Shown here: one piece after another, positions 4,426 to 56,273 of the stretch
Numbering within the stretch: the first letter of the stretch is position 1
How the letters are laid out: every line of letters starts with the position of its first letter
DNA from: a virus
DNA length: 64,000 bases
IMG/VR virus record: IMGVR_UViG_3300035698_017111
Coordinates: 1-64,000 of that record
Direction: 5' to 3' (one strand)
The notes under the pieces: model-generated
What the model was told of the DNA's origin: nothing
The model's database searches: none
The model's input: only the letters and a program-made list of their open reading frames with translations
Made by a program: the position numbers and the translations under genes

Positions 4426-4675
4426 CTACCTTTGCTTTGAAAACATCGTCGTCATAAAGCTTATAATCTGCATCTGCAAAGAGAAAACGATCCATGCTCA
4501 GATCATATTTAATGGGATCTATGTTCGTAATCCCAAGACAATAACACACGAGGCTTCCAACGGCTGAATTGTGAACAGACAAACCTTCTATATTGTATGT
4601 GTGGGTGTTTTCTACGGAAAGATCATAAACCTTCCCTGTATATTTTGTTTTTTTTATTTTTTTTATTTTAGCCAT
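4418..4675 (-). CDS. dnaE: DNA polymerase III alpha, short middle fragment preceded by split-intein C half
   Basis: The ATG at 4675 follows the endonuclease stop by one base and has a GGTGGAAG site upstream. Residues 1-36 are an IntC ending in the canonical HN; the C-extein then reads SAVGSLVCYCLGITNIDP, the DnaE loop that follows GRG. The frame ends about 20 residues after LSMDRF with KAKVGG and TGA. In ordinary DnaE this point lies only a few residues before PDIDIDF; here a long insert starts and is continued in the next frame (2542-4425). I infer that splicing joins this 50-residue C-extein to the N-terminal fragment at 5723-7114. Confidence 0.9.
   Translation of the reverse strand: MAKIKKIKKTKYTGKVYDLSVENTHTYNIEGLSVHNSAVGSLVCYCLGITNIDPIKYDLSMDRFLFADADYKLYDDDVFKAKVGG
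4568..4675 (-). other. Split intein A, C-terminal half (IntC, 36 aa)
   Basis: Lys-rich start, then GKVYDLSVENTHTYNIEG and SVHN, the classical block F/G signature with the penultimate His and terminal Asn. Ser+1 begins the extein SAVGS. Its length is typical of a split IntC. The partner is IntN A at 5723-6013. Confidence 0.93.
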
Positions 4676-4676
4676 T

Positions 4677-5645: not shown

Positions 5646-5722
5646 AATGATCTCCTTTATTGTTGCATTATATCTATTCTTCAAACTGCCAAACAATACC
5701 TCTTCCTATACCGATTGTTATT

Positions 5723-6013
5723 CTATCGTCCAATCAAATCAACAATATCATCATTTTCCTTAAGGTCTTTTGCATGAACCCAGACTTCTTGATCATCTCT
5801 GTTGATTAATATTAAATGATCTTCCGTACAGGTAATTTTCCTTCCATCCTCGACTTCTATTGTAATTACAGTTTCATCCACATCATACTCATATGTATCT
5901 ATAACTCCATTAACCGACCCATCATGAGAAACAACAATTTCTCCAACTTTTACTTCTTCAATGTTCTTTAAACATCCACTATCTAGTAAAACTTTATTTC
6001 CTGGAAGAAAACA
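5723..6013 (-). other. Split intein A, N-terminal half (IntN, 96 aa)
   Basis: Cys1 is encoded at 6013-6011. The half shows block A (CFLPGNKVLLDSG), a central VGEIVVSHDG and block B (ITCTEDHLILIN, with T..H). It stops at 5723 without an endonuclease domain. It pairs with IntC A at 4568-4675. Confidence 0.92.
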
Positions 6014-20382: not shown

Positions 20383-20571
20383 ATGTCAATAATCAAAAGA
20401 GCCACAACAATACAAACACCACAAGTCGTATTAGAGAAGAAAGGCAGCTTAGTCTGTCATGTTTGCGGTAAAGAAATCAACGATATAGAAAATTTTCAAT
20501 GCGATAAAGCAAATTGCCCAATGAGAAAGACTGGAAAACATGACCAGACCGACGATCACAATAGGGAATAG
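20383..20571 (+). CDS. Small Cys-rich protein (62 aa)
   Basis: VCHVCGKEIN and FQCDKANCPM give four cysteines spaced like a small zinc finger. It follows the previous gene with one base between, and its 3' end overlaps the helicase start by 32 bases in another frame. Function unknown. Confidence 0.65.
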   Translation: MSIIKRATTIQTPQVVLEKKGSLVCHVCGKEINDIENFQCDKANCPMRKTGKHDQTDDHNRE

Positions 20572-29585: not shown

Positions 29586-32237
29586 ATGCCAGTAAAGATG
29601 CAAGAAAGAATTAGTAGGTTTTTTACAGACGGGAATTCACATCCATATGAAAATGTTACTTGGAAAAAGTTTCACTCAATAATTAAAAACAATAAAACTG
29701 GCAACATTAATTTTGAACAAAAGGATGTTGAGTTTCCATCCACATTTTCACAAAACGCCATTAATATCATTGCATCTAAATATTTCAAGGGTGTTATTGG
29801 TACTCCAAATAGAGAAACCAGCTATAAGCAATTGATCGACAGGGTCGTCAATACAAATGTGCTTTGGGGGGTTGATCAGGGATATTTCGAAACAGAAGAA
29901 GAGCAACAAATATTTGAGGAAGAATTGACGCATATCCTTCTTCACCAAATAGCCTATTTCAACTCACCAGTATGGTTCAACATGGGCTTTGATGGTCGTC
30001 CACAAACTGCATCAGCTTGCTTTATAAATTCTGTTGAAGATGATATGGAATCTATTCTCGATCTATTTAGGACAGAAGGTATTATTTTTAAAGCCGGTTC
30101 TGGTTCTGGTGTAAATATGTCGTCTCTTCGTAGTAAACATGAGGGTTTATCTACTGGTGGGTCGAGTTCTGGCGTACTATCGTTCATGAGGGTTGCAGAC
30201 GCTAACGCAGGTTCGATTAAATCTGGTGGAGCAACAAGACGAGCAGCTAAAATGGTGATCTTAAATGTTGATCATCCAGAGATTGTTGATTTCACATACT
30301 GCAAGGTTAGGGAAGAAGAGAAGGCTTTTGCTTTGATTAGAGAGGGTTATGACGACTCCTATAATGGAGAGGCATACTCTACTGTAAGTTTTCAAAATGC
30401 AAACAATTCAGTTCGAGTTACAGATGATTTTATGAACTCGGCAGAAGAGGATGGTGAGTATTGGACCAAAGCTGTCTCAACTGGCAAAAGATTTCAGAAA
30501 CATAAATCTCAAGTTATCCTCAAGGGTATCGCAGATGCAACGTGGAGATGTGGAGATCCTGGACTACAGTATCATGACACGATTAATAAGTGGAATACCT
30601 GTAAGTCAGATCCGTGTGTTGCTTCAAACCCATGTTCCGAATACGTTGCACAAAACGACACATCGTGCAATTTGGCTAGTTTAAATCTCATGTCATTCCT
30701 TGACTCAGAAAACAACTCGTTTGAGGTAGAAAAGTTTGTTCATGTGTGTCAGGTTGTTGGTGTGGCACAGGATATTTGGATTGAAAACGCTCAATATCCA
30801 ATTGATAAGATTTCTGAAGAAACCAAAAAGTACAGAACAATTGGTCTTGGTTATGCAAACTTAGGTGCTCTTCTTATGTGTCTAGGACATCCTTACGATA
30901 GTGATGACGCAAGAGGGATTGCCGCATCACTTACAAGTCTAATGACTGCCGTAGCATATGAGACTTCTGCAACAAACTCTGCTTCTCTTGGTTCGTTTCC
31001 AAAATGGGAGGAGAATAAAAAGTCTATGTTGGATGTTCTCTCCATGCACAAAAAATCTCATGGTGAGATTAGAAAAATATCATATGTTAAAGAAATCCTC
31101 AAAGAAGGAACGAAAAGATGGGACAATGCAATAAGTGTTGGTTCTGAACATGGTTTTCGAAACTCTTATGTTTCTAATTTGGCTCCAACTGGCACTATTG
31201 GTATCGCTATGGACTGTGATACAACTGGCTGTGAACCAGAAGTTGCACTCGTCACATACAAATTATTGGCTGGTAGTGATGTTACGATGGAAATTGTAAA
31301 CAATACAGTTGGTAGAGCATTGGGCAATCTTGGCTACAGTAAAAATGATATTATTACCATTAACGAACATATCTTGGCAAACAACTCTGTTGTCGGGTGT
31401 GACAAGATTCAAGAGAAACATATTCCAATTTTCGATACTGCATTGGGCAAAGAGAGAAGCATCAGGCCAGAGGGACATTTGAAAATGTTGTCGGCAATTC
31501 AACCATTTTTAAGTGGTGGGATAAGTAAGACAATCAATGTCCCAGAAGAGACAACTGCTGACGAAATATGTCAAATGTATATTGATGCATGGAAGATGGG
31601 AATCAAATGTGTTGCCATCTATAGGGACAACTCTAAGGGAAGTCAACCCCTTAGTGTGGTTAAGCAAGAAAGAGCTCGTGCCACAAGGATTAGGTTACCA
31701 GATGATGTGGAAACGAAACGTCACAAAGCTGTTATTGATGATCACGATATCATGTTCCATTTCGGCAGATATCCAGACGGAAGCCTTGGTGAAGTGTTTA
31801 TCACAATGTCTAAACAAGGTAGTACTATGAGGGGATTGATGGATACGTTTGCAATTTCCATGTCTCTTGGGCTCCAGTATGGCATTCCGGTTAAGATTTT
31901 CGTACAGAAAATGCTTCATTCAAAATTCGACCCACAAGGGTGGACTGGGAACAAGCAAATACCGTTTGCACAGAGTATTATTGATTACATGATGAAGTAC
32001 ATCGCTTTCAACTTTATGGATGATGCTGAAAGAAAATCGATGGGTATTTCAAGTCCGATACCATATGTAAAGGAATCTAAGGTTAAAAAACAGAAGAAAT
32101 TAACAGATACTAAGGTAGGTAGGGGAAGAAAGAAGTCTAGTGCATCACTTGCGTGTCCAAGTTGTGGCTCTTTAATGGAGACCAATGGTAGTTGCAAACA
32201 CTGCAAAAACTGTGGACACACCACAGGTTGCTCGTAA
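29586..32237 (+). CDS. nrdJ: Adenosylcobalamin-dependent (class II) ribonucleotide reductase
   Basis: The 883-residue enzyme has FNSPVWFNMG, SGSGVNMSSLRSK, the active-site NPCSEY, SNLAPTGTIG and a C-terminal TSCPSCG-type zinc ribbon ending in GHTTGCS. These are marks of the long NrdJ group, which uses vitamin B12 and reduces ribonucleotides with or without oxygen. No small beta subunit gene is seen, as expected. GGAGAG precedes the ATG. A glutaredoxin-like gene downstream could be its reductant. No intein is present, although NrdJ is a frequent intein host. Confidence 0.95.
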   Translation: MPVKMQERISRFFTDGNSHPYENVTWKKFHSIIKNNKTGNINFEQKDVEFPSTFSQNAINIIASKYFKGVIGTPNRETSYKQLIDRVVNTNVLWGVDQGYFETEEEQQIFEEELTHILLHQIAYFNSPVWFNMGFDGRPQTASACFINSVEDDMESILDLFRTEGIIFKAGSGSGVNMSSLRSKHEGLSTGGSSSGVLSFMRVADANAGSIKSGGATRRAAKMVILNVDHPEIVDFTYCKVREEEKAFALIREGYDDSYNGEAYSTVSFQNANNSVRVTDDFMNSAEEDGEYWTKAVSTGKRFQKHKSQVILKGIADATWRCGDPGLQYHDTINKWNTCKSDPCVASNPCSEYVAQNDTSCNLASLNLMSFLDSENNSFEVEKFVHVCQVVGVAQDIWIENAQYPIDKISEETKKYRTIGLGYANLGALLMCLGHPYDSDDARGIAASLTSLMTAVAYETSATNSASLGSFPKWEENKKSMLDVLSMHKKSHGEIRKISYVKEILKEGTKRWDNAISVGSEHGFRNSYVSNLAPTGTIGIAMDCDTTGCEPEVALVTYKLLAGSDVTMEIVNNTVGRALGNLGYSKNDIITINEHILANNSVVGCDKIQEKHIPIFDTALGKERSIRPEGHLKMLSAIQPFLSGGISKTINVPEETTADEICQMYIDAWKMGIKCVAIYRDNSKGSQPLSVVKQERARATRIRLPDDVETKRHKAVIDDHDIMFHFGRYPDGSLGEVFITMSKQGSTMRGLMDTFAISMSLGLQYGIPVKIFVQKMLHSKFDPQGWTGNKQIPFAQSIIDYMMKYIAFNFMDDAERKSMGISSPIPYVKESKVKKQKKLTDTKVGRGRKKSSASLACPSCGSLMETNGSCKHCKNCGHTTGCS

Positions 32238-33672: not shown

Positions 33673-36054
33673 ATGAATTTCGAAGACATCCTTAGCCCAA
33701 AACTGAAAATGATCTTGCGTGACAAAGCTTTTGTTTCGGCAATTAAACTTGGTCACAATGGGGTTTGGCCACAAGATCTTATCCTTTGTATTCTTGGAGA
33801 GGCAGAAAGTCTTTCTGATAATATTTTAGGACTATTGAATGTTGATGTACCCGAATTGTACAACGGCATATCAAATGTATCTGTGCTAAAAGACGAAGAC
33901 AAAATAGACGAAACAAAAATTCACGATAGCACAAAAGAGATTCTCCGTCTTTCTAAAGAAGAATCTATTAATTTGGGGCATCCATACATTGGTACCGAAC
34001 ACGTTATTCTATCGTTCCTTTCCTATGGTGGCAATGTCGCACACATTAGAGAGATTAAATCTCTTTTAGAAAAATATGGAATCACTAAGAGAGATTTCAA
34101 AATGGGGATTATTGCTGCAATGAGTAGTAGCAATGTCGGCCGGAAGAAAAAAACCTCTGAAGAAAAGGAGAAAGCTATCGCTGAAGACGGATCAAGTGGT
34201 AGTGGTAGAAGGACAAGAAAAGAAAAACAAACAACACTTGAACAGACATTGAAGAAGGAATCATACATAGAGAATGTAAATGAAAAGGTTGCCAAAAGAA
34301 AAGAATCTTTCATTGGTCGAACCAAAGAAATAGAAAGATGCATTCAGGTTCTTTGTCGTAAAAAGAAAAGAAATCCAATCGTTGTTGGTGAATCTGGTGT
34401 TGGTAAAACCGCACTGATCGAGGGTCTGGCACAAAGAATTAACTCTGGCGATGTTCCAGGTAAAATAAAGGGAGCTCAGATTTACTCTGTTAATCTTGGG
34501 AATGTTGTTGCTGGTACAAAATATAGAGGACAGTTTGAAGAAAGAATGAAGTCTATTATCTCGTTCTTTGAAATTAAGAAAAAGAATCCTCAAATCATTT
34601 TTATTGACGAGATACACACCCTTATCAACGCTGGAAATGCAGAAGGTGCATTGGATGCTAGTTCTATACTCAAACCAAAATTATCTTCTGATGTATTTCA
34701 ATGTATCGGTACGACGACATACGAAGACTATAGAAAGTATATTCAAAGAGATGAAACTCTTTCTCGTAGATTTACTTCTGTGTTTTTGGAAGAACCGTCC
34801 ACCGAAGACACTGTCAAGATTCTTCGTGGCATTAAATCAGAATATGAAAACTACCACGGGATTAATATCGATGATAACTCCATTAAGACAATAACCGATC
34901 TTTGTGATAAATATATTAAAAACAGATTCTTCCCAGACAAAGCCATTGATATTCTTGATGAGTCTTGTGTTAAATCAGTTTTGGAGACACACAATAAGAG
35001 TAAGACTGGGGTAAAGAATCTTCTGTTGGAAGAGACAATCCTTGAGGTTATTTCAGATTCTACTGGTATTCCTGTTGCGACAATGTCTCAGGACGAAAAA
35101 AAGACACTTGGGAACATTAAAAAAGAGATGTCTAAGGTTGTCATTGGCCAGACAAAAGCAATAGATGTTGTTTGTGATGCACTTCAGAGATCACGCATTG
35201 GGTTTAAGGATGCCAATAGGACAATGGGGGTGTTTTTGTTCTTGGGTCCAACAGGTACTGGTAAGACTCTTTTGGCTCAAAGTATTTCTCAAAAATTATT
35301 TGGATCGAATAAGATAGTTCGACTCGATATGTCGGAATATATGGAAAAACATTCTATATCTAAGATTATTGGAAGCCCACCCGGATATATTGGTCATGAT
35401 GATGGTGGACAGCTTACCGAACAGATACGGAAAAAACCATACTCTGTAATTCTCCTTGATGAAATAGAAAAGGCTCATCGAGATGTTCTAAACATCTTCC
35501 TTCAGATATTTGATGAGGGTAGGCTTACAGATTCGCAAGGTAGACTGGCTGACTTTAGCAACTCTATTATCATAGCCACGTCTAATATTGCAGCAGCACA
35601 GATTGGCAAGAAAGCAAAGGGTATTTGCTTTCGTGTTCCAGACCATGTGCGACAACAGGATGACGTTGAGAAGTTTCTATTAGACGAAGTCCAGAATCAC
35701 TTTTCTCCTGAGTTTATTAACAGAATAGACGAAACACTTGTGTTTAACACATTCACCAAAAAAAATGTCAGGAAAATTATGGAGATAGAACTTGGCAAGG
35801 TGAAAGATAGGATTAAAAAAGCTGGCTACAATATTAGGGTGTCTCCGTCAGCCAAAACCTTTCTTTGTGAAAATGGATACTCAGAAGAATATGGTGCTAG
35901 ACCTATGGTTCGTGTTTTGAAGAAACACATTGAGAATCCGTTGGCTAATCAAATATTTGCAGACAAAATAGATAGCAATGCTATCGTATATATTAACTAC
36001 AGTAAGCCGAATACAGAGCTTACGTTAAGCCAAAAACAAGACGGAGGAAAATAA
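33673..36054 (+). CDS. clpC: ClpC/ClpA-like AAA+ unfoldase
   Basis: A 793-residue class I Clp ATPase: N domain (1-150, GTEHVILSFL), first AAA+ (Walker A GESGVGKT 239-246, IIFIDEIHTL, TTTYEDYRKYI) and second AAA+ (GPTGTGKT, VILLDEIEKAH, FINRIDE). It lacks the long middle domain of ClpB. At residues 651-653 ICF sits where ClpA and ClpC carry the ClpP-docking IGL/VGF tripeptide, so pairing with the phage ClpP at 7111 or the host ClpP is likely. Pore-loop GTKYRGQF is present. Confidence 0.93.
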   Translation: MNFEDILSPKLKMILRDKAFVSAIKLGHNGVWPQDLILCILGEAESLSDNILGLLNVDVPELYNGISNVSVLKDEDKIDETKIHDSTKEILRLSKEESINLGHPYIGTEHVILSFLSYGGNVAHIREIKSLLEKYGITKRDFKMGIIAAMSSSNVGRKKKTSEEKEKAIAEDGSSGSGRRTRKEKQTTLEQTLKKESYIENVNEKVAKRKESFIGRTKEIERCIQVLCRKKKRNPIVVGESGVGKTALIEGLAQRINSGDVPGKIKGAQIYSVNLGNVVAGTKYRGQFEERMKSIISFFEIKKKNPQIIFIDEIHTLINAGNAEGALDASSILKPKLSSDVFQCIGTTTYEDYRKYIQRDETLSRRFTSVFLEEPSTEDTVKILRGIKSEYENYHGINIDDNSIKTITDLCDKYIKNRFFPDKAIDILDESCVKSVLETHNKSKTGVKNLLLEETILEVISDSTGIPVATMSQDEKKTLGNIKKEMSKVVIGQTKAIDVVCDALQRSRIGFKDANRTMGVFLFLGPTGTGKTLLAQSISQKLFGSNKIVRLDMSEYMEKHSISKIIGSPPGYIGHDDGGQLTEQIRKKPYSVILLDEIEKAHRDVLNIFLQIFDEGRLTDSQGRLADFSNSIIIATSNIAAAQIGKKAKGICFRVPDHVRQQDDVEKFLLDEVQNHFSPEFINRIDETLVFNTFTKKNVRKIMEIELGKVKDRIKKAGYNIRVSPSAKTFLCENGYSEEYGARPMVRVLKKHIENPLANQIFADKIDSNAIVYINYSKPNTELTLSQKQDGGK

Positions 36055-39888: not shown

Positions 39889-40341
39889 ATGATTATAAAA
39901 AAGTATAAGATAACATCTGAACGGCCAGAAGAAACTGAATTCGAAGTGGTTGTTGTTAGGAACACAACAAGCACAATGAAAAAGACTTCTGTCGTTGATG
40001 AGAATGGTATTGTGATTTCCGCAAGACGAGCACCAGATGTAACAACAGATACAGACGTTAAAGAAGGTATCTCTGCAGTTTCTATTCCAAGCAGAACACC
40101 AGCCATCGTGGAGATACTTGAGAAGGGTGACCAGTTTGGCCCCACAGTAACAGTACAGTCTGAGCCAGAGCCGGATCGAGTTCGGGCAGAACCTAAAAAC
40201 TTAACAAAAGTTATGAATAACGAGCTTGGCCCAGACGGCAGACCAGCTTCTATTGATCTAAATGCTCTCATGCATGAGGATGGAGCAAAACCACAACAAT
40301 TGCCCAATCCTGGGGATATTGTCTGGGCAGACGAGGACTAA
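39889..40341 (+). CDS. Hypothetical protein (150 aa)
   Basis: ATG 39889 lies seven bases after GGAGGG. The N-terminal half is beta-rich (KYKITSERPEETEFEVVVVRN); the C-terminal half is rich in Pro, Glu and Asp and looks disordered. No known domain. One base separates its stop from the next ATG. Confidence 0.65.
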   Translation: MIIKKYKITSERPEETEFEVVVVRNTTSTMKKTSVVDENGIVISARRAPDVTTDTDVKEGISAVSIPSRTPAIVEILEKGDQFGPTVTVQSEPEPDRVRAEPKNLTKVMNNELGPDGRPASIDLNALMHEDGAKPQQLPNPGDIVWADED

Positions 40342-40342
40342 T

Positions 40343-42355
40343 ATGATCCATCAACTTACAGCTCCAATTGAAGAAATAAAAGAATCTATGATTATTCATG
40401 GTGATTCTTTAGATATGATGAAGATGCTTCCGAGCAATTCTGTGCATTTGGTGTTCACATCACCACCATATGCTGGTTTGCTTAGGAAATATATCGAAGA
40501 TCCAAGAGATTTGGGTCAACTCCCTGTAGATAAGTTTGTAGATACGTTTATGGACTATGTTCATGAAATTACCAGAGTTTTAAGACACGAAGAGGGATGT
40601 GTTTTTATCCTAAACCTTGGTGAGAAATATGAAAATGGATTTGCCAGTTGTTATCCAGAAAAGATAATGCTTCGAACAGAGGCAGAAACCCCTCTTAGAG
40701 TGATTGATAAAGTACCGTGGTGCCTGTCTAATGATACAATGCTGTATGTCCGTTCTAAAAAGGGAGACATGCCAATGTCAATGCGTGATCTCTCTAGGCT
40801 AAAACCAGAAACAATTAAATTGTGGAATGGTGAAAATTGGACAAAGATAAAATCAATTTGGAAAAATAAAAATCCAGAAAAAATACTAAAAATAAAATTT
40901 AGAAATGGAGAAATGGTTTACTGCACAGATAACCATGGATGGCCAATACTAAATTCAACCAAATGTTCTTATAGTATTGTGAAGGCATCCGATTTATCTG
41001 TTGGTAATATTGTGTCCTCATGCAAATTACCAGAACCAAAAAATCCAAACACACCAGAGTTGATACCAGATGACTTGGGTTGGCTGGTTGGTTTGTATTT
41101 AGCGGAAGGCAGCAAAATGAAGGGTAAGAAAGCTATTCGGATTTCTGGACATTGTGACGAAAAAGATAGGCATGAAAAAACCATGCGTCTTGCCAAAAGA
41201 TATGGTGCGACTTGTAATATCTATTATCCAGAAGGAACTAAATCTGCAGAAATTCACATATATTCAAGATTTGTAGAATCATTAATAGATGAATATGTGT
41301 CTGGGAATAGTGCTTTAAACAAAAGACTCACTAATAAGTGTTGGAGTAGGAGCGATGTGTTTTTAAAAAACATCATTAAAGGCTATCTTGTCGGTGATGG
41401 ACATTGGGATTGTCCAAATGAAAGATGGAAACTCGGATTTTGCAGAAACAAGAATATTGCAGACAACATTAGAACAATTTGTTCTAGAATAGGTGCTTCA
41501 TGTAGAATAAGACCAGGTATCGTTTCTTTAAATGGTAAAAAATTCAAAAAATATTCTGGAGAAATACGATTTTCAACAAGAGATAACGACAAAAGTGATT
41601 ATGAAATTGTAGAGATCAAAGAGACGAAAAAAGCAACATCTTTTTGGGACCTTGAAGTTGAAGATGATCCGCATTTGTTCTCTCTTAATTCAGGGGTATT
41701 GACACATAACTGCAAACCGGATCCGATGCCTGGTAAAAAATCAAGACATGGAACTATTGCATGGGAACATGTTATTATCTTTGGAAGTCAATCTGATAAA
41801 ATAAATCAAAACAGAGATTTTATGTTAAGACCATATAAATCATCGACTAAAACAATCTCCACCAAAAAGAATAAAAAAGAAATCAGGAAACAAACTGGAC
41901 ATCCAATGAATGCGGCAAAGTGTTTTAAAAACATTGGTGCCGAGCCTTTTAACTACCTTGATACAGACACATTTCCAGAAGGTCCGATAGAAGATGTTTT
42001 TAATCGTATTGAATGCACTACACAGACCGTTAAGGGAAGTAATCATAAAGCACAAATGCCAGAAAAACTTGCCAGATACTTTGTTGGTGGATATTCACAA
42101 AGACAGCAATTCGTACTTGATCCATTTGGTGGTGGTGGGACAACCGCAGCTGTTGCATGGGGTCTTGACAGACAATTCGTCCACATTGATTTAGTGGCAG
42201 AAAACTGTGTAATTTCAGAAGAAAGAATTAAGAAAATACCACAAAAAAGAGATGTCTTTAATTTTCATGGCTTGTCGAAAGAATTGCCAAAGGAAAGAAT
42301 GGAAGACGTTAGTAGGCGTGTCTTGCAAGACGGAGAGAAACAAGACATCTTCTAG
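40343..42355 (+). CDS. Beta-class DNA methyltransferase interrupted by an intein
   Basis: The precursor starts at ATG 40343 (670 residues), one base after the previous stop. Residues 127-456 are an intein; the host enzyme is about 340 residues. Motif IV is VFTSPPYAGL near residue 33, and motif I is LDPFGGGGTTAAV near the C-terminus. Removal of the intein joins DKVPW to CKPDPMPGKKSRHGTIAWEH, matching the W-C-(H/K)K segment in the methyltransferase at 9539. Target base unknown; SPPY favours N4-cytosine. Confidence 0.92.
   Translation: MIHQLTAPIEEIKESMIIHGDSLDMMKMLPSNSVHLVFTSPPYAGLLRKYIEDPRDLGQLPVDKFVDTFMDYVHEITRVLRHEEGCVFILNLGEKYENGFASCYPEKIMLRTEAETPLRVIDKVPWCLSNDTMLYVRSKKGDMPMSMRDLSRLKPETIKLWNGENWTKIKSIWKNKNPEKILKIKFRNGEMVYCTDNHGWPILNSTKCSYSIVKASDLSVGNIVSSCKLPEPKNPNTPELIPDDLGWLVGLYLAEGSKMKGKKAIRISGHCDEKDRHEKTMRLAKRYGATCNIYYPEGTKSAEIHIYSRFVESLIDEYVSGNSALNKRLTNKCWSRSDVFLKNIIKGYLVGDGHWDCPNERWKLGFCRNKNIADNIRTICSRIGASCRIRPGIVSLNGKKFKKYSGEIRFSTRDNDKSDYEIVEIKETKKATSFWDLEVEDDPHLFSLNSGVLTHNCKPDPMPGKKSRHGTIAWEHVIIFGSQSDKINQNRDFMLRPYKSSTKTISTKKNKKEIRKQTGHPMNAAKCFKNIGAEPFNYLDTDTFPEGPIEDVFNRIECTTQTVKGSNHKAQMPEKLARYFVGGYSQRQQFVLDPFGGGGTTAAVAWGLDRQFVHIDLVAENCVISEERIKKIPQKRDVFNFHGLSKELPKERMEDVSRRVLQDGEKQDIF
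40721..41710 (+). other. Cis-splicing LAGLIDADG intein in a DNA methyltransferase
   Basis: Starts at Cys127 (CLSNDTMLYV) and ends at Asn456 (SGVLTHN), with Cys+1. Block B is YCTDNHGWPIL. LGWLVGLYLAEGSK and IIKGYLVGDGHWD are the two LAGLIDADG helices, so the endonuclease is probably active. The insertion site lies in the target-recognition side of the enzyme rather than in the catalytic SPPY motif. Confidence 0.93.
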
Positions 42356-44946: not shown

Positions 44947-46257
44947 ATGAGATTTACCGTCAGAAAACACGAATTAGACAAGGCAGTTTCTGTTATTAGG
45001 GGCTCTAATGCTCTTGGTAGGAAAGAAGATGAGATGCTTTGTCTCCTCTCAATTGAAGCAACCAATACGGATGGGAAAAACAAAGTAGAATTGTTAGCTA
45101 CAAACATTGGCGTTTGGGCTAGTGCCTGTGTTACCGATGAGGATTTTTCTGATCTTGGCGAAGAGGCGTCCAAGAACTTTTCTGTTGAAAAGCCTGGTAG
45201 AGTTCTTGTTGATGGACATTCGTTCCTCAATAGAATTGTCACCTATCCGCAAAACTCAATCATTCATTTCACACTCGAAAGCAAGAGCTCTAAAGGTAGT
45301 GAAAAATCTGAGTTCCTTCAAGCCAAATACGAAGTTAAAAACGCACAAAAAACAAAATGGAAGACATGTGGGTTCCTTCTAAAGAATTCCGATATATTTG
45401 AAACAATGCCTCCAGACGAGGAGAGGAAAGAAGCTTCTGTCCCAGCTAGCCATCTTTACGAAGCTGTAAATTCTGTATCGTTTGCTGCTGGCTCTGATGA
45501 AACAGATCATTATCTTTGGGGTTGTCAGGTTCAGGTTTACGGTAATGAGGTTTCTGCATTCTCTTCAGACAGATCTAGATTGTGTTGGTTTGATGAGAAG
45601 GGTAGAGATAGAGAGGGTGAACCAGAACTCGTCTTTGTTCCAGTAAAGGAAAGTTTTTTGTCTGCATTGAAAAATATGGAGATGACAGAACAAATTGACA
45701 TTGAAGCTGGAGAGAGATACACCATCATTAAGCAGAGAAATCAATGGCATGCTGTTCCTAATGTTATGAATCCAGAAGAACTCCCAGACTGGAGAGAAAT
45801 TGCACAGAAGTTAAAGAAGACTGCTGTGTCTACTGTTCGAGTCCCAAAGAAAAGTATTCTTGATTTTATCAAGTCGGCACTCACTGAATCAACAGCTCAA
45901 TTTGGTATTGGCTTGTCGTTTGATTCTGAAAACAAAACAGTATCCTTCTCTATAGATAGGATTGAAGTCGGCAATGTTCTTTATTCGTATATTGATGAAG
46001 GTGAGTCTCTGGACGATGCAGATTTTACTGGAGATATTGATTCAAAAGTTATTCTTACAATTGAAAATGTTAGAGATATTATATCGAGATACTCTGACGA
46101 GATGGTTATATTTAGGGTAACCAATGGAACGTCTCCTGTTGAGATAATGAGTAATGGAGATACTATAGAATACATTAGCAGTACTGTACGTTCGTTGTCT
46201 GAAGAACACCCAAGTGAAGAATCGAAAGAAGAACCGAATGAAGAAACAGAAGAGTAG
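44947..46257 (+). CDS. dnaN: DNA polymerase III beta-type sliding clamp
   Basis: The 436-residue protein shows the DnaN-type pattern of repeated clamp folds; the clearest part is VNSVSFAAGSDETDHYLWGC...VSAFSSDRSRLCW, corresponding to the second-domain stretch of bacterial beta. The last 25 residues are a Glu/Ser-rich acidic tail. GGGAGAG precedes the ATG. The next gene is a delta-like subunit, and dnaX is 6 kb upstream, so the phage encodes clamp and loader. Confidence 0.85.
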   Translation: MRFTVRKHELDKAVSVIRGSNALGRKEDEMLCLLSIEATNTDGKNKVELLATNIGVWASACVTDEDFSDLGEEASKNFSVEKPGRVLVDGHSFLNRIVTYPQNSIIHFTLESKSSKGSEKSEFLQAKYEVKNAQKTKWKTCGFLLKNSDIFETMPPDEERKEASVPASHLYEAVNSVSFAAGSDETDHYLWGCQVQVYGNEVSAFSSDRSRLCWFDEKGRDREGEPELVFVPVKESFLSALKNMEMTEQIDIEAGERYTIIKQRNQWHAVPNVMNPEELPDWREIAQKLKKTAVSTVRVPKKSILDFIKSALTESTAQFGIGLSFDSENKTVSFSIDRIEVGNVLYSYIDEGESLDDADFTGDIDSKVILTIENVRDIISRYSDEMVIFRVTNGTSPVEIMSNGDTIEYISSTVRSLSEEHPSEESKEEPNEETEE

Positions 46258-47248
46258 TATAAGCTTCTATTGGTTGATCGGGGATCGTTTTCTTTGTATT
46301 GAGAGAAAAAAAGACATAATAGAAAGTATCTCAGGTAAAAAGAAACATACTGTTAAATATATCAAATCAACCGATTCTGCAGATGATTTCTGCAGTAAAA
46401 TGAGCGTTAGAGATCTTTTTGGGTCTTCGAAAACCATCTATGTGTACGATGGTCAGATACCAGAACCAGCTAAGACAATTGGATTCATACAATGTCTTGA
46501 AAGCGATTCTGTGCTTGTCGTTGTTACGGACAAGGTTGATAAGAGAAGCAAGATATACAAAGACCTCAAGAACCATGTTGAAGAATTTCCAACGGTTATG
46601 AGTGGTCCGTATCCAGATAGGTCTAAGATTAAGGTTGTTGAAAGGATTATAAAAAAAATGGTAAGGTGGGATGGTGATGATGGGGTTTTTGATTTCATCT
46701 TCCAAACATGTGGATATGACGCTGGTAAGACTGTAAATGAAATTAAGAAGATATGTATCTATAATGACGGTTCATGTCCACAAGAGTTCGCAGATATCAT
46801 TGGAATAATGTCAGATAGAGATGATCCAGATATAACTAAATTTGTTATGTCTTTGTCTGATGGTGACTCAGAATCTGCTATTAGTTTGTGTGATAAGATT
46901 ACAAGTTCTGGTAATTTTGAACAGATAAAGATGCCTGTATTTGGTGCAATTCTAGAACAGGCATTCTTCACATTGTATTGTGTTATGGCAGAGAAATCTG
47001 GTGCTGAAAATGCTGATCAAGTTGGAAAGTTTATTTCTGAAACATGGCAAAAAAAGGGTAAAAATGTCAGTGCAGTTTCAATGTCAAGGAGATACTCATA
47101 TTCCAGAGATCAATTAGATGGATTGAGTGTTAAAAGAGCAAGCCAAAGAGTAGAACATATTTACAAGGCTATGAAGAAATGTTTGTTGAATGTGGGAACG
47201 CCTAAACACGTCTTTCACGAACTTGTCCTTTCGTATAAATACATATAA
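46238..47248 (+). CDS. holA: DNA polymerase III delta-like clamp-loader subunit
   Basis: ATG 46238 lies inside the 3' end of the clamp gene; an upstream GTG (46214) is also possible. The 336-residue protein has the HolA outline: an early FYWLIGDRFLCIERKKDII, then MSVRDLFGSSKTIYVYDG, VVVTDKVDKRSKIYKDL, and a helical collar domain. There is no P-loop, as expected for delta. Assignment rests on this outline and on the gene order clamp-delta. Confidence 0.75.
   Translation: MKKQKSSISFYWLIGDRFLCIERKKDIIESISGKKKHTVKYIKSTDSADDFCSKMSVRDLFGSSKTIYVYDGQIPEPAKTIGFIQCLESDSVLVVVTDKVDKRSKIYKDLKNHVEEFPTVMSGPYPDRSKIKVVERIIKKMVRWDGDDGVFDFIFQTCGYDAGKTVNEIKKICIYNDGSCPQEFADIIGIMSDRDDPDITKFVMSLSDGDSESAISLCDKITSSGNFEQIKMPVFGAILEQAFFTLYCVMAEKSGAENADQVGKFISETWQKKGKNVSAVSMSRRYSYSRDQLDGLSVKRASQRVEHIYKAMKKCLLNVGTPKHVFHELVLSYKYI
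47234..47241 (+). promoter_or_regulatory. T4-late-like promoter element TATAAATA
   Basis: The eight bases match the T4 late promoter consensus exactly and I noticed no other exact copy in the window. It lies at the very end of the delta-like gene, 66 bases before the ruvC ATG. A phage sigma factor, perhaps that at 51267, would be needed. Confidence 0.35.
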
Positions 47249-47306: not shown

Positions 47307-47810
47307 ATGTCTATTATTCTGTCCCTAGATCCTGCAAGTTTAAAGAATCTGGGGCTTTGTGTTGCTAAATTTATGAAAAAGGAAATGAGGATAATTGATA
47401 GTTTTACAAACGTTTTTGATGTTGATCTTGAAAACAAAGACAAAAGACTTGTTGAGACGAAGATTCTAATAGAGGCTCTTATTGACAAGCACAAAGTAGA
47501 TACGGTTGTTTTTGAAAGATCAATGGGGTTTGGTAAGGCTTTTGTTCGTAATCAACTCAGCGAACAAACAGGTATTGTTAAACTTGTTGCTTACGAAAAA
47601 GGCGTTCCGGTAGTCGAAATATCTCCCAAGACAGCGAAGAAGAGGATTACTGGTAGCGGAAATGCTACCAAGAGAGAGGTGATTAACGCTGTTTTAGAGA
47701 CATTTAGCATGAATAAAAAAGACCTATCCTCTGAGCATGAGGCAGATGCCATTGCGATGGCCTATACCCACTTTAAGATGGTAAGAGAAGATGAGTGTAA
47801 TAAAAAATGA
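47307..47810 (+). CDS. ruvC: RuvC-like Holliday junction resolvase
   Basis: The 167-residue protein has the four acidic positions of RuvC: Asp8 (LSLDPA), Glu70 (VFERSMGFG), Glu143/His144 and Asp147 (SSEHEADAIAMAY). SPKTAKKRITGSGNATKREV is the conserved DNA-binding loop. It probably resolves branched phage DNA before packaging. The 3' end overlaps the histidine kinase start. Confidence 0.9.
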   Translation: MSIILSLDPASLKNLGLCVAKFMKKEMRIIDSFTNVFDVDLENKDKRLVETKILIEALIDKHKVDTVVFERSMGFGKAFVRNQLSEQTGIVKLVAYEKGVPVVEISPKTAKKRITGSGNATKREVINAVLETFSMNKKDLSSEHEADAIAMAYTHFKMVREDECNKK

Positions 47811-49308
47811 AAAGGCTGTAAGTATAATGGCGATTAAAGCATTAGAAGAATTTTTGCTATTGGCAGAAGTTATATTTATTTGTTTAGACAAGGATGCAAC
47901 TATTACTGCAATCAATGGTCATGGTGTTGACATCTTGGAATGTGATGACGAGTCTGACGTTATTGGTCTTAATTGGATAGAAGATTTTATTCCAGAGTAT
48001 TTCAAAGACAATATAAGAAAACTTTTTTTATCAAATATTAAAAACCCAGATACGGTGTCTGTCTACCATCAGAATCCAATATTGACTAAAAAAGGAAATG
48101 TAAAATGGATTTCCTGGACCAATGCAATTAGAGAAAGTGGTGATGGAGAATATGTTTCTGTAAGTTGTGGTGTTGATATCACCCAATGGAAACATCTTGA
48201 GGTAAGGATAGGTGAGGGTCTTGATAAACAAAGAAAAAGTGAAGAGACATTAAAATCCATTACTGAATCAACACAAGATTTCATTATTCTTAAAGACACA
48301 AGTTCTAGGTATTTGTATGTTAACAAATCTACTACAGATGCTTTTAACATACCTTATGAAGAATGGGTTGGAAGAACTAGGGAAGAAATATTTAGACCTA
48401 ATACAAAAGATAAAGATAAGTCAACACAAAGAACAGTTGAAAGTCTTGAAAAAAAAATAATTGAAACTGGTGAAACTGTTACGCATGAACTCGAAATGCT
48501 TGGAAAACAATTTCATGTTGTTTACTCTCCTGTAAAAAACGAAAATGGTAAAGTTGAGATGATTTCTGTTATATTTAGGGATATTTCTAAATTAAAAGAA
48601 GCAGAAGAAGAGTTAAAGAAACGAAATCAAAACTTAGAAGATTTTACCGATGTTGTTTCGCACGATCTTCAAGAACCATTGAGAAAAATAACCTCATATG
48701 TTGAAAGAATAAAAAAAGAAACTCCAATGAAGGATCGCAGGAAGTCTTCACAGCATATGGGTAAGATAATTGATGCATCTCAAAGAATGCAAAAATTGAT
48801 TGATGATCTTTTAGAATTCTCAAGAATAAACCTTGAAGAAGATTGTAACTTTTTCCAAAAGGTTAACGTAGAGGATGTGATAAACGAAGTGATGTCAGAT
48901 CTTGAAATAAGGATAGAGTCGTCTAAAGCTAAAATATCTGTTGAAAACATGCCAACAATAGAAGCAGATCGAACTCAAATGAGACAGCTTTTCCAAAATC
49001 TAATTAGTAATTCTATTAAGTTTAAAAAGGAAAATGTCGCTCCAATTATTAATATATCTTGTGAGATGGTCAATGACATGGCCATCATTTTTGTAACTGA
49101 CAATGGAATAGGATTTGATGAAAAGTACAAAAATAAAATCTTCTTGCCCTTTAGAAGACTTTATAGACATACGAAGTACCCCGGATCTGGCATCGGATTA
49201 GCCATTTGTAAGAAGATAGTCAATGCACACTGTGGATGTATTGGTGTCAAAAGCAAAATCGGAGAGGGATGTTCTTTTGTCATTAGTCTACCTATGAAGC
49301 AGGATTAA
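47791..49308 (+). CDS. Soluble PAS-PAS sensor histidine kinase
   Basis: The 505-residue protein has two PAS domains (about 20-135 and 155-270), a coiled linker, a HisKA domain with phospho-acceptor His291 in VVSHDLQEPLRKI, and a HATPase domain with N box NLISNSIKF (403-411), G1 DNGIGF (437-442) and G2 GSGIGL (465-470). All catalytic boxes are intact. No transmembrane segment is present, so it senses something in the cytoplasm. Start 47791 overlaps ruvC; ATG 47827 is an alternative. The closest design I know is the phytochrome-type kinase that signals to small Rcp1-like receivers, and two receiver genes follow. Confidence 0.93.
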   Translation: MSVIKNEKAVSIMAIKALEEFLLLAEVIFICLDKDATITAINGHGVDILECDDESDVIGLNWIEDFIPEYFKDNIRKLFLSNIKNPDTVSVYHQNPILTKKGNVKWISWTNAIRESGDGEYVSVSCGVDITQWKHLEVRIGEGLDKQRKSEETLKSITESTQDFIILKDTSSRYLYVNKSTTDAFNIPYEEWVGRTREEIFRPNTKDKDKSTQRTVESLEKKIIETGETVTHELEMLGKQFHVVYSPVKNENGKVEMISVIFRDISKLKEAEEELKKRNQNLEDFTDVVSHDLQEPLRKITSYVERIKKETPMKDRRKSSQHMGKIIDASQRMQKLIDDLLEFSRINLEEDCNFFQKVNVEDVINEVMSDLEIRIESSKAKISVENMPTIEADRTQMRQLFQNLISNSIKFKKENVAPIINISCEMVNDMAIIFVTDNGIGFDEKYKNKIFLPFRRLYRHTKYPGSGIGLAICKKIVNAHCGCIGVKSKIGEGCSFVISLPMKQD

Positions 49309-49323
49309 TAAAGGATATGACGC

Positions 49324-49791
49324 ATGGTGAATGAGAATAAATTATCTAGTAAACACTTAATAGTATTACTTGTTGACGATGACGAAGAAGACCGTGGTAT
49401 TGTCCATGATGCTATTTCTGAATTGTTTGATGGTGTTCGAATCATTCAGATGGATGATGGTGAGGATTTAAGTAATTATCTAAATAGCGAAGAAGATTTC
49501 GCAGAGAGACCACCAGTTAATGGATCTCTACTGATAATTCTTGATTTACGGATGCACAGGAAGTCTGGATTTGAGGTTTTGAAGGAAATTAAAGAAAATA
49601 AAAAAACACAATCCATTCCTGTTATTATATATAGTGGCTCTAGCTCACAGAAAGACATAAATACAAGTTATAAACTCGGAGCAAACAGCTACATTACGAA
49701 ATCATACAGTTTAGATGAAGTAAATCAGACATTGGGTAATGCTCTCAATTTTTGGTTATCAACATCTGGGTTGCCAAACGTTTCCATCTGA
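49324..49791 (+). CDS. Stand-alone receiver (Rcp1-like response regulator)
   Basis: The 155-residue protein is a single receiver domain: acidic triad Asp18-Asp20, phospho-acceptor Asp74 in IILDLRM, Ser in IIYSGSS and Lys126 in SYITKS. There is no output domain. The YL/FW pattern and length resemble the small receivers paired with soluble PAS/phytochrome kinases. It follows the kinase gene by 15 bases, so it is its likely target. Confidence 0.92.
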   Translation: MVNENKLSSKHLIVLLVDDDEEDRGIVHDAISELFDGVRIIQMDDGEDLSNYLNSEEDFAERPPVNGSLLIILDLRMHRKSGFEVLKEIKENKKTQSIPVIIYSGSSSQKDINTSYKLGANSYITKSYSLDEVNQTLGNALNFWLSTSGLPNVSI

Positions 49792-49808
49792 GCTAAAGGA
49801 GAGGGTCC

Positions 49809-50750
49809 ATGGGCAATAACGATATCCTCAGAGTATTATTAATAGAGGATGACGAAGAAGATTATGAACTCACGAAAGATCTTGTAAATGAAATTAAAAG
49901 AACAAAAATAGAATTAGATTTTTGTGAGACGTATGATGAGGGTCTTGAAAAAATAAAAAGTGGTGAATACGATGCATATCTTGTTGATTGCAAATTGGGT
50001 TTAGATGACGGACTTGACTTGATTGACGAAGCTAAACTCCACGAATGTAGATCTCCAATAATAATACTCACCGGACAAAGAAATGGCAATATTGATATAA
50101 AGGCACTTAACAGAGGGGCAGATGATTATCTGTCTAAAAGGAATACCGATGCTTCTCTTTTGGAAAAAAGCATTCTGTATTCTATTGAGAAAAAGAAACT
50201 TGAAAGAAAACTAAAAGATAGTCAAACTCTTCTATCGTCCATATTAGACACGACAAAAGTTGGTATGTGTCTTATTGATAAAAATAACAATATTGTAAAA
50301 ACAAATCCAGCATTGTTGTCAATGTTTAATTTAGAAGATGTTTCTATTAATGTCTTTGAAAGTACATTTTTGTTATCAGAACACAACTCTTCACCATTTC
50401 GTAACAAATCTTTGCAAAAAGAACTTCCAGTTGGAAACCCTATAGACCTATCACTATTACATAACGATGGAGAATATGTTGTAAAATGTCTCCTAAATAG
50501 TATTGTAAAAGACTGCACCATTACAATAAGTGATCTTTCTTATGTTAACGGTAGTGTTCAAGAATTTATTCTAATTAATTTTATAGACATTACCAAACAG
50601 AAAAAAACAGAAAAAAGTCTAGTTGATACACAAATAAAACTACAAAGATCTATTGAAAAACATGGCATTAAAACAGAAGATCCAAATGTTATGATGGATT
50701 TGATTGACTTGGAAATCTGTAGGATGCGAGGAGAGTCAAGCTGTGTTTGA
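49809..50750 (+). CDS. Response regulator with C-terminal PAS domain
   Basis: Residues 1-120 are a receiver with Asp14/Asp15, phospho-acceptor Asp60 (YLVDCKLG), Thr88 (ILTGQ) and Lys110 (DDYLSK). A coiled linker leads to a PAS domain (about 135-255). There is no DNA-binding or enzymatic output domain, so signalling must go through protein contact. GGAGAG precedes the ATG. The stop overlaps the GTG of the next gene. Confidence 0.9.
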   Translation: MGNNDILRVLLIEDDEEDYELTKDLVNEIKRTKIELDFCETYDEGLEKIKSGEYDAYLVDCKLGLDDGLDLIDEAKLHECRSPIIILTGQRNGNIDIKALNRGADDYLSKRNTDASLLEKSILYSIEKKKLERKLKDSQTLLSSILDTTKVGMCLIDKNNNIVKTNPALLSMFNLEDVSINVFESTFLLSEHNSSPFRNKSLQKELPVGNPIDLSLLHNDGEYVVKCLLNSIVKDCTITISDLSYVNGSVQEFILINFIDITKQKKTEKSLVDTQIKLQRSIEKHGIKTEDPNVMMDLIDLEICRMRGESSCV

Positions 50751-51267
50751 AGAGATCATTACAGTTCTGATTGCTAGTCCACAGGGTGGCGTTGTTATCG
50801 TCTGCCTCATACTAGTCATATCTCTTATAGTGTGGCTTTTCCTTAATTTTATTTTCAAAATCTTTAAATGGGTCTATGAAAAGGACCAGGAAAAAAAACA
50901 GTTTGCGAAGATACAAAAAGATCTAGAAAAACAATTCGGCGACAAATTCAAAGACCTAAAAGAAGACGTAAATAATGATTTTAAAGATCAAGAAGAGAGG
51001 CAAAAGAATAGAATCTCTGATGGAACTGTGTCTAAGGGAGAACTTTTTAATAAATTAGATACATTTAATAAAGAATTGGGGAATATCCGACAAGAATATA
51101 GTGCCAATATGGTTCCTAGAAAAGAATGTCGAGAAGAACAAAAAACAATTAGAGAAGACATTAGAGATGTTGAGAAAACACACAAAACAGACATTGAGAG
51201 ACTCCGAGAAGAAATGGGAGACGTGAAAGCCAGAGTTGGGTCTATGGAAGGTAAAATAGACAACTAA
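50743..51267 (+). CDS. Membrane-anchored coiled-coil protein
   Basis: GTG 50743 follows GAGGAGAG and overlaps the upstream stop, giving 174 residues. A single long hydrophobic helix (about residues 17-40, GGVVIVCLILVISLIVWLFL) is followed by a charged coiled coil to the C-terminus. It has no signal cleavage site. It could be an i-spanin- or XhlA-like lysis protein, or a membrane anchor for the signalling proteins next to it; the sequence cannot decide. Confidence 0.75.
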   Translation: MFEEIITVLIASPQGGVVIVCLILVISLIVWLFLNFIFKIFKWVYEKDQEKKQFAKIQKDLEKQFGDKFKDLKEDVNNDFKDQEERQKNRISDGTVSKGELFNKLDTFNKELGNIRQEYSANMVPRKECREEQKTIREDIRDVEKTHKTDIERLREEMGDVKARVGSMEGKIDN

Positions 51268-51926
51268 TGAGAACATATACCATACAAGAAGCTGTGCCAC
51301 CCAAGTGGGCTGCTATTAATGATTTGGTCCTCCAGGCAAAAATTGGAGGGAAGGAAGAAGTAAATAACCTATGGAAAATCTATAAATTCGTTTTTGACGA
51401 AATATTTGCTGGTTTTCTTGTAGTATATGAGTTTTTTGGCACTGAGAGAATAGAAATCTATTATCATTTTCGAATGTGGTTTTTAGATTTCGTTACAAGA
51501 TATGATTTTGAAGGGAAGTATGGTTTTGGATACTATCTCAAAAAAGAGATAATTAAAGAAACAAAAGAACATCTTCGTGAACGATATATGCTTTCTGACG
51601 AAATGTTGATCAGAGATGAGATTATAACAGAAACAATTCGTTCTGATACGCCGAACAAAGAGAGGACAGAAGAAAAAAGAGAAATACAAAATGCCCTTAG
51701 GATAATGACTCCAAAGACTAGACAAGCAACTTATTGGCACATTTACAAGGGTTTTAGGTTAAAAGACTGTGCAGAAATAGCAGGAACCAGAGAAGATACT
51801 TTGTCAAGAAAAATTATGGCGGCACGAAAGAAAGTCTTACAGAGTCTGTACGGGATAGAAACAAAAGCAAAGAAACAGAAGAGACGGGAAAAAATATATA
51901 GAATTCCATATACCGCACCCTCCTAA
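51267..51926 (+). CDS. Sigma-factor-like protein
   Basis: The C-terminal part (RIMTPKTRQATYWHIYKGFRLKDCAEIAGTREDTLSRKIMAARKKV) is a region-4-like helix-turn-helix, as in ECF sigma factors. The N-terminal half (FRMWFLDFVTRYDFEGKYGFGYYLKKEI) resembles a divergent region 2, including an F-x-YL-K segment like that before the sigma -10 helix. Its stop overlaps the next gene's possible start. Given its place after the phosphorelay and before packaging genes, it may drive late transcription. Confidence 0.75.
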   Translation: MRTYTIQEAVPPKWAAINDLVLQAKIGGKEEVNNLWKIYKFVFDEIFAGFLVVYEFFGTERIEIYYHFRMWFLDFVTRYDFEGKYGFGYYLKKEIIKETKEHLRERYMLSDEMLIRDEIITETIRSDTPNKERTEEKREIQNALRIMTPKTRQATYWHIYKGFRLKDCAEIAGTREDTLSRKIMAARKKVLQSLYGIETKAKKQKRREKIYRIPYTAPS

Positions 51927-51937
51927 TGGAGATAAAG

Positions 51938-52162
51938 ATGAGAACAGAAAAGAAAGAGATGCACCCACCCAAACATTTCACACTAGATCCAGATCATCCA
52001 CAAGTTGGTGATAAGGATTGGTTGGGTAAATTCGCTGAATCTATGCTGAAAAAAGCTGCTACTGCCCCATATGGTGTTTACCCACTGGGGGGATTGGACC
52101 CAAACGAAGAGAAAGACTTAAGATGCAGAGATATAAGACAGAAACGTATAATGATCAATTAG
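51938..52162 (+). CDS. Hypothetical small protein (74 aa)
   Basis: ATG 51938 follows GGAG; an earlier ATG (51926) overlaps the previous stop. The protein is charged, with TLDPDHPQVGDKDWLGKFAESML in the middle, and has no known motif. The 3' end overlaps the next gene by 40 bases. Confidence 0.6.
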   Translation: MRTEKKEMHPPKHFTLDPDHPQVGDKDWLGKFAESMLKKAATAPYGVYPLGGLDPNEEKDLRCRDIRQKRIMIN

Positions 52163-54527: not shown

Positions 54528-56273
54528 ATGGCACGTAAAACAAAAGAGCCTGTGTTTGATCTTGACGACATCTTTCAAGATGCTGTCAAGACAGTAAAGG
54601 GAGACATTGCCCTCAAGACAGGCAAACCGATGGATATTATCACGTTTGCCACCGATATGTTAAAGCAAACGTTGTATCCCACACAGAAAGTAATGCTTAA
54701 GTGTTTTTACGCCGGTACCAGATTTCATGAAGATGTTTATATTACAGAAGAGGAATGGGATTTAATTAAATCTTGGGAAATTCCACAAAGCTGGATATTT
54801 AATGGAGAGAACAGTAAACAAAAAGTACTCGATAGACATAGGGATAGTGAAAATCCCGAAGATTACTTTAGGGATCTTGTTCTTATTCTTGGACGACGTA
54901 GTGGTAAATCTTACCTAAGTGCCTTGATTGCTGTCTATGAGGCATATAAACTTCTTACATTCCCACATCCACAAGATTTCTATAAAATTGACTCTGACAT
55001 ATACATAGTCAACACTGCTATTACTGGCGATCAGGCAGAAACTATTATTTTCCAGACAATTCGTGGATTCATATACAAAGCTCCATGTTTCGAAGGTAGA
55101 ATCAAAGAAGCTAAAGAATATGGTGTCCCAACAATTAGACTAAGTTCCGACTATGACCTAGAACTTAAACAAAAAGTAAAAGAAGAATCTGGTAAAGATC
55201 TTGCGGGATCTATTGTTCTTCGTAGTGGTAACTCCAACTCCCCCGCACTTCGTGGTAAAGCAGCAGTTATGGTCATTTATGATGAGATGGCTCACTATGT
55301 CGATACTGCTGGTAAATCATCTGCTGATGAAGTATATGCAGCCCTTTCTCCATCAACCCTAACGTTTAGAGACAAGGGTGACGGTAGGAATGTTGTTATT
55401 TCATCTCCATTTATGCCACATGGATTTTTCTATAGACACTATATGAGTGCAAAAACAGTTAATAGTATGTTGATTTTTCAGGTACCAACATGGGATGCCA
55501 ATCCAAAACACCCTAAAAGAATGATTGAAGATGATTTAAAGAAAGATTTTGAAAAGGCAAATGCTGAGTATGGTGCCAGGTTTCGTCGTACTGCTTCTAA
55601 TGTATATTTTCCACCAGCCAAAGTAGAAGAAGCTATGATAAGAAGGGAAAATTGGTTTAGAAAAGACACAGGATGGCCTGGATATGAGTATTACATGCAT
55701 ATCGACCCAGCTAAAAACTCAGATAATTGGGCCATAATGATAGGACATCCCGAATACAGGTTTGACCAGACTTCTGGCCAGAAACTACTATACATAGTTG
55801 AAGATTATTCTTATTTCTTTGTTCCTCCACCTGGTGATTTCCTTGATCCAGACGAGATAATGGATGATTTTATTCTTCCTCTTTTTGATAAGTTTAATAT
55901 TGTCTCGTGTACATCTGATCAGATGTTTAGTCTTGAGCAAAGAAAGAAACTAAAGAAAAAAAGTATATATTTTAGAGAGATACCATATAACGGAAGCAAA
56001 AAAAACGAAATATATGATACCACAAGGGATTTCTTTATCAACGGTAGAATAGAATTGTGTAACGATGATGCAGAGCTAGCGGGAGAATTAAAGAATATTA
56101 CGGTGGATTATACAAGAACTCCACCGAGAATAAAGAAGAATTCAGAGAGTGACGAATTCTCCAACGATGACATGGTGGATTGTTTAGGTGGTATTATAAT
56201 TTCCATCATGTCGGGAGCTACTGGAAGAACAAGATTGCCAAGGATAGTAACTGTCCATACTGGAAGACGCTAA
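54528..56273 (+). CDS. terL: Terminase large subunit
   Basis: The 581-residue protein has the packaging ATPase motifs GRRSGKS (122-128, Walker A) and VMVIYDEMAH (Walker B), coupling motif VVISSP, and the RNase H-like nuclease with HIDPAKNSDN near 389, CTSDQM and a final DDMVDCLGG. All key acidic residues are present. GGAGAGGAG precedes the ATG. It powers DNA translocation into proheads and cuts concatemers. Confidence 0.95.
   Translation: MARKTKEPVFDLDDIFQDAVKTVKGDIALKTGKPMDIITFATDMLKQTLYPTQKVMLKCFYAGTRFHEDVYITEEEWDLIKSWEIPQSWIFNGENSKQKVLDRHRDSENPEDYFRDLVLILGRRSGKSYLSALIAVYEAYKLLTFPHPQDFYKIDSDIYIVNTAITGDQAETIIFQTIRGFIYKAPCFEGRIKEAKEYGVPTIRLSSDYDLELKQKVKEESGKDLAGSIVLRSGNSNSPALRGKAAVMVIYDEMAHYVDTAGKSSADEVYAALSPSTLTFRDKGDGRNVVISSPFMPHGFFYRHYMSAKTVNSMLIFQVPTWDANPKHPKRMIEDDLKKDFEKANAEYGARFRRTASNVYFPPAKVEEAMIRRENWFRKDTGWPGYEYYMHIDPAKNSDNWAIMIGHPEYRFDQTSGQKLLYIVEDYSYFFVPPPGDFLDPDEIMDDFILPLFDKFNIVSCTSDQMFSLEQRKKLKKKSIYFREIPYNGSKKNEIYDTTRDFFINGRIELCNDDAELAGELKNITVDYTRTPPRIKKNSESDEFSNDDMVDCLGGIIISIMSGATGRTRLPRIVTVHTGRR

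Follow-up and report, generated by a model that had tools for sequence, protein, structure and literature searches.

A kinase, two receivers and a membrane-anchored coiled coil: a candidate phosphorelay module in large phages

We analysed a 64,000-nucleotide stretch of viral DNA (the window; bases 1-64000 of the 146,772-base IMG/VR virus record IMGVR_UViG_3300035698_017111), and focused on a group of genes that appears to encode a phosphorelay. A ruvC gene and five further genes lie between a clamp/HolA-like replication pair (44947-47248) and the terminase gene, and a check of open reading frames (ORFs) showed that the frames of all six are open at 47307-51926. The five genes encode a histidine kinase (HK), two response regulators (RR1 and RR2), a membrane-anchored coiled-coil protein and a sigma-like protein. 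A preliminary description, made from the sequence alone, had proposed this set with its order and position, and the domain matches bear it out (Table 1).

The genes are tightly packed. The HK/RR1 and RR1/RR2 gaps are 15 and 17 nucleotides long and carry Shine-Dalgarno-like sequence. The coil gene overlaps RR2, with a GTG start at 50743 (following AGGAGAG, and a better fit than TTG at 50704) ahead of the RR2 stop at 50748-50750. The coil/sigma and sigma/next-gene overlaps both read TAATG (51265-51269 and 51924-51928). As stop and start codons overlap, the sequence suggests translational coupling of RR2 to the coil gene and of the coil gene to the sigma gene. No terminator-like sites were found between the operon genes, although this carries little weight, since the scan counts equalled those of shuffled sequence.

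Table 1. Genes of the relay locus and its surroundings (window coordinates; TM, transmembrane segment)
Feature	Position	Strand	Basis or remark
ruvC-like resolvase	47307..47810	+	Pfam RuvC 9.5e-14; upstream neighbour, not relay member
Histidine kinase (HK), PAS-PAS-HisKA-HATPase, 505 aa, cytoplasmic	47791..49308	+	Pfam, site inspection
RR1, single-domain receiver, Rcp1 type	49324..49791	+	Response_reg 5.7e-16, FWL...LP C-terminus
RR2, receiver-PAS	49809..50750	+	Response_reg 1.1e-15, PAS about 2e-4
Membrane-anchored coiled-coil protein (predicted)	50743..51267	+	one N-terminal TM, residues 16-34
ECF-like sigma factor (candidate), region-2-like and region-4 parts	51267..51926	+	Pfam, PHROG, PDB profile, fold matches
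78-aa ORF coupled to sigma gene	51926..52162	+	
Terminase large subunit, end of syntenic block	54528..56273	+	53% identical in L012

The kinase matched PAS_4 (1.5e-15), HisKA (1.8e-11) and HATPase_c (4e-24) in Pfam, with a weaker N-terminal PAS. Its phospho-acceptor, His291, is encoded at 48661-48663, and the N, G1 and G2 boxes are intact, so that all the kinase motifs of a two-component system (H, N, G1 and G2) are present in the window. These catalytic residues were invariant across 13 aligned viral kinases. Both receivers keep the acidic pair, the phospho-acceptor aspartate (Asp74 of RR1 at 49543-49545, Asp60 of RR2 at 49986-49988), the T/S residue and the lysine. Neither has a DNA-binding output, RR1 being a single receiver and RR2 a receiver followed by a PAS domain. 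All of this agrees with the preliminary description; an intact kinase with two intact receivers would give the phage a complete, soluble phosphorelay.

In a tree of receivers, the viral RR1 proteins cluster with the RR1 of bacterial HK-RR operons (97*); a likeness to Rcp1 itself is presumed. The RR2 proteins of the window and of its closest counterpart, locus L012, fall in a starred set (99*) with the receivers of receiver-kinase hybrids, in a tree of few columns and some long branches. The RR2 of the window is 51% identical to that of the hybrid in the bacterial operon L056. The C-terminal HisKA-HATPase core of such hybrids is absent from RR2, which ends after its PAS domain, and the whole record holds a single HisKA. 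Since its receiver groups with hybrid receivers, RR2 is best read as a hybrid minus its kinase. In the predicted structure the receiver is confident (predicted local distance difference test, pLDDT, about 90) and the PAS part is low.

The same components were found in other viruses. Direct IMG/VR searches with the window kinase or sigma protein gave no relatives, and a full-length alignment of two kinases gave unusable search patterns; searches with the kinase core yielded 26 loci. The gene order was recovered up to the terminase in L012, which has a HolA-like gene, a PD-(D/E)XK nuclease, HK, RR1, RR2-PAS, a one-TM protein, a sigma-like gene, three further genes and the terminase. Between window and L012, identity is 42% for the HK core, about 36% for RR1 and RR2 and 27% for sigma. 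The place of ruvC is held in L012 by the nuclease (L012:4889-5461, PDDEXK_15 1.6e-22), which by these domain matches is a non-homologous replacement within a conserved block. The 78-aa ORF and the ORF next to it match by position one 452-aa gene of L012. This conservation in L012 argues that the block is more than a chance arrangement.

Beyond L012, the kinase and two receivers recur in about 20 IMG/VR virus records and in Microcoleus phage My-WqHQDG, so that homologues are not confined to scattered single genes with decayed active sites. The order HK-RR-RR was observed in L005, L012, L021, L024, L028, L029, L031, L032, L033/34, L035 and L140, and HK-RR-RR-membrane protein in the Microcoleus phage, L033/34, L024, L028, L031, L035 and L140. 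The order is HK-RR-TM-RR in L018/19, and RR-HK-RR in L026/27, L036, L037, L127 and L128. In a giant-phage group (L015, L017, L020 and L025; records of 219-548 kb) the kinase lies on one strand and the RR1/RR2 pair on the opposite strand, a few kb away.

Each of 22 records (the window's, 20 from IMG/VR and the Microcoleus phage) has exactly one HisKA kinase. Receivers, counted over 22 IMG/VR records, numbered exactly two in 15, three in 6 (the third being weak in 4 of these) and one in 1. Records with a single HisKA kinase and usually two receivers reach 619 kb; stretches of bacterial chromosome of such size are expected to carry more kinases and receivers. A terminase match was obtained in 11 of the 22 records. 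Given the few two-component genes per record and these terminase matches, we take most of the records to be viral; for some, notably L036, viral identity rests on IMG/VR. A Terminase_6N search of eight records gave no match. Terminase scans returned only the contig of L012 and one short fragment, which indicates that the phage group of the window is thinly sampled. As the records were picked for a kinase of this family, the sample is silent on the frequency of the module among all phages. The only convincing case in the deposited-phage collection was the Microcoleus phage; most other matches there were set aside as unannotated or bacterial-looking contigs under phage names. L022, L126, L130 and L137 were not taken as the viral form, as they have the unaltered bacterial hybrid architecture.

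In the membrane-anchored protein of the window, a single stretch of strong hydrophobicity precedes a charged coiled coil that is predicted to be cytoplasmic. In most viral modules a small one-TM protein, often coiled-coil, adjoins RR2 (window, L012, L005, L024, L028, L031, L033/34, L035 and L140). A single protein combines receiver, coil and TM in L029/L032, L036, L127 and L128; L037 has a receiver-TM-helix fusion, and the coil protein of L013 carries a degenerate receiver. Proteins that are encoded by neighbouring genes in some genomes and fused in others are classically taken to be functionally linked, and both states occur here for receiver and membrane coil. Among loci with a receiver, a one-TM neighbour was present in 13 of 19 viral versus 8 of 55 bacterial loci (Fisher test, p 2e-5; L022 was counted as viral, which is conservative). 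A neighbour with both TM and coil score was present in 7 of 19 viral versus 1 of 55 bacterial loci. By charge bias, most of the coils lie in the cytoplasm and none clearly on the opposite side. The protein-contact output to the membrane protein, raised in the preliminary description, is likely on this recurrence as neighbour and fusion partner of receivers. Coil-TM genes also stand directly before a lone receiver in two one-receiver records (L152:4612-6346 and L144:4680-5432), which may be a pared-down version of this association.

Substitution rates indicated purifying selection on the kinase, the receivers and the membrane part. The nonsynonymous (dN) and synonymous (dS) values were 0.07 and 1.4 for the kinase of a viral pair, and 0.14 and 1.1 for a receiver-coil-TM fusion. 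These low ratios already disfavour the idea that the genes are passing cargo, that is, recently acquired host genes with no selected function. Several independent acquisitions would suit that idea; the intact sites over long viral branches and the gene order kept across phages at about 35% identity do not, and we consider it highly improbable.

To trace the origin of the module, we compared it with a control set of 80 bacterial and archaeal loci that carry this kinase family. Their commonest neighbourhood (21 of 80 loci) was RR1 followed by a receiver-kinase hybrid, such as receiver-PAS-HisKA in L113 or receiver-PAS-HisKA-HATPase-receiver in L056. Starred branches of the kinase tree force at least 4 changes between virus and cell, and on this tree the module is one that viruses acquired more than once. 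The gene set turns up in many large phages that are not related to one another, which suggests that viruses have taken over bacterial sensing again and again and rewired it to an output at the cell membrane.

Together, these observations led us to the reading, held at a probability of roughly 0.52, that a bacterial operon of HK, Rcp1-like RR and receiver-(PAS)-HK was captured by large phages and rewired to a membrane coil. In the mechanism that we propose, the PAS domains would sense a cytoplasmic cue, and the kinase would phosphorylate both RR2 and RR1, the latter serving as an Rcp1-like partner or as a phosphate sink. Each phage probably responds to a cue of its own, since the sensor regions of the kinases vary (PAS, CHASE3, Cache or no recognised domain). 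Phospho-RR2 would alter its dimer and the state of the coil, as receiver phosphorylation zips the signalling helix of LvrB, a kinase under receiver control (PMC13269768), and the receiver, joined to or contacting the membrane-anchored coil, would drive an action at the membrane. By sequence and analogy we infer that phospho-RR2 acts through the coil, possibly on lysis or the envelope; as a working guess, the module would serve to time lysis, lysis delay or another event at the envelope. Weak matches of coil proteins to the PHROG 'hemolysin' (XhlA) family (L140 at 4e-4, L024 at 0.009) hint at lysis; the window protein gave no PHROG XhlA match. The broader proposal is of a virus-specific class of phosphorelay that arose several times out of bacterial operons and times lysis or another envelope event by a cytoplasmic cue, with receiver phosphorylation directly switching a membrane-anchored coil; it is tentative, and we place it below even odds.

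Several points weigh against an output at a membrane coil. The giant-phage group, and also L026/27, have the kinase and two receivers with no membrane-coil gene seen nearby, and the membrane proteins of L005/L033 and L018 have a low coil score. The membrane proteins could not be aligned between groups, and the end that carries the TM differs: it is the N-terminus in the group of the window but the C-terminus in most of the rest. Transmembrane segments and coiled coils were called by simple scores, and the Fisher tests count related viral loci as independent, which makes their p-values optimistic. The XhlA matches are near noise, and coil composition could explain them.

The sigma-like gene offers another output. 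The protein matched sigma-70 region 4 at 2.5e-4 (below the Pfam cut-off) and the PHROG 'RNA polymerase sigma factor' at 3e-7. Its PDB profile matches were mostly sigma factors (SigW over residues 17-195, E 0.07), and its fold matches were led by extracytoplasmic function (ECF) sigmas, on a poor AlphaFold model (pLDDT 51) that is supportive at most. Profile and fold searches, each weak and all concordant, point to an ECF-like sigma. A receiver in its phosphorylated form, alone or together with the membrane protein, could bind or release this sigma and time late (packaging or structural) transcription. The coupling of the sigma gene to the coil gene, its retention in L012 and known precedents (the response regulator PorX with the ECF sigma SigP, PMC4800418; the receiver-anti-sigma protein LvrC, PMC13269768) speak for it, and the PorX-SigP precedent makes relay control of sigma plausible in the phage group of the window, where the sigma may be a further output. 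However, the sigma gene beside the module and the terminase context are confined to the window and L012; in other lineages the neighbours are replication, tail or other genes. Sigma control therefore cannot be the shared role of the module, and the timing of late transcription or packaging, suggested in the preliminary description, does not hold as a general role. Sigma is also far less conserved than terminase between the two, and a late sigma just ahead of late genes needs no link to a relay. The suggestion of partner switching (in the RsbW/SpoIIAB sense) was rejected, because the operon proteins include no anti-sigma serine kinase or STAS domain (the scan covered the operon and not the rest of the record). 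A receiver-sigma fusion of the PhyR-NepR-EcfG type is likewise absent, sigma and receivers being separate proteins. On balance we regard sigma control as unlikely to be the main output.

The relay might instead tap the phosphorelays of the host, with phage kinase and receivers either passing phosphate to its receivers or draining it from its kinases; the membrane protein would then be incidental. In favour of this, every part derives from common bacterial operons, RR1 has no output domain and the sensor parts differ among phages. But the phages keep a receiver pair of their own, as well as a membrane partner that several lineages have fused to RR2, and one kinase per genome fits a self-contained relay. 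We find host rewiring doubtful, and prefer capture and rewiring to the membrane coil.

Some other features of the window and record were noted. DNA polymerase III alpha (2542-7114, minus strand) is encoded in pieces whose ends or beginnings are intein (Hint) segments, which suggests split inteins. Inteins are also present in a helicase (with a LAGLIDADG endonuclease) and a DNA methylase (20540-23182 and 40262-42355). A ClpA/ClpB-like AAA protein and a class II (B12-dependent) ribonucleotide reductase are encoded at 33673-36054 and 29586-32237. The record has only two tRNA-like genes, and one of them, at record positions 85917-85988 (L008:2017-2088), has a UCA anticodon. The UGA recoding that this raised was ruled out, as TGA ends 20 of 86 long ORFs and is an ordinary stop.

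The open-access literature gave no phage system with a kinase, two receivers and a membrane coil, in line with the novelty proposed earlier, and a description elsewhere is possible. The phage two-component genes that we found there are single genes or partial sets: phiCDHM1 carries agrC without a response regulator (PMC3901668), pelagiphage kinases adjoin curli genes (PMC9599517) and Alteromonas phage V22 has a CheY-like gene (PMC7289586). If our reading is true, phages sense the state of the cell and respond through protein phosphorylation, and the relay offers a defined protein set for testing sensing-controlled timing of infection. Small phage membrane proteins of the XhlA/holin type (PHROG 1193) share a small coil and single TM with the L024, L031 and L140 proteins; they differ in that the profile matches are weak, the lysis role is putative and the window protein has no match. 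PorY-PorX-SigP also relays to an ECF sigma by direct protein contact (PMC4800418), although PorX has a PglZ domain, its genes are scattered and the putative sigma contact here is confined to one phage group. LvrA-LvrB-LvrC of Leptospira (PMC13269768) similarly has a receiver followed by a helical signalling segment, a relay without DNA-binding output and, in LvrC, a receiver-sigma link. In LvrB, receiver phosphorylation closes the coiled coil directly C-terminal to the receiver. That system is bacterial, however, LvrB retains its kinase core, and there is no membrane coil. The bacterial operons of L056 and L113 share the SHDLQEPLR-box kinase family, RR1, the RR2 receiver lineage and the gene order with the phage module, which differs from them in having an RR2 without kinase and, in the terminal place, a one-TM, usually coiled-coil protein, either separate or fused.
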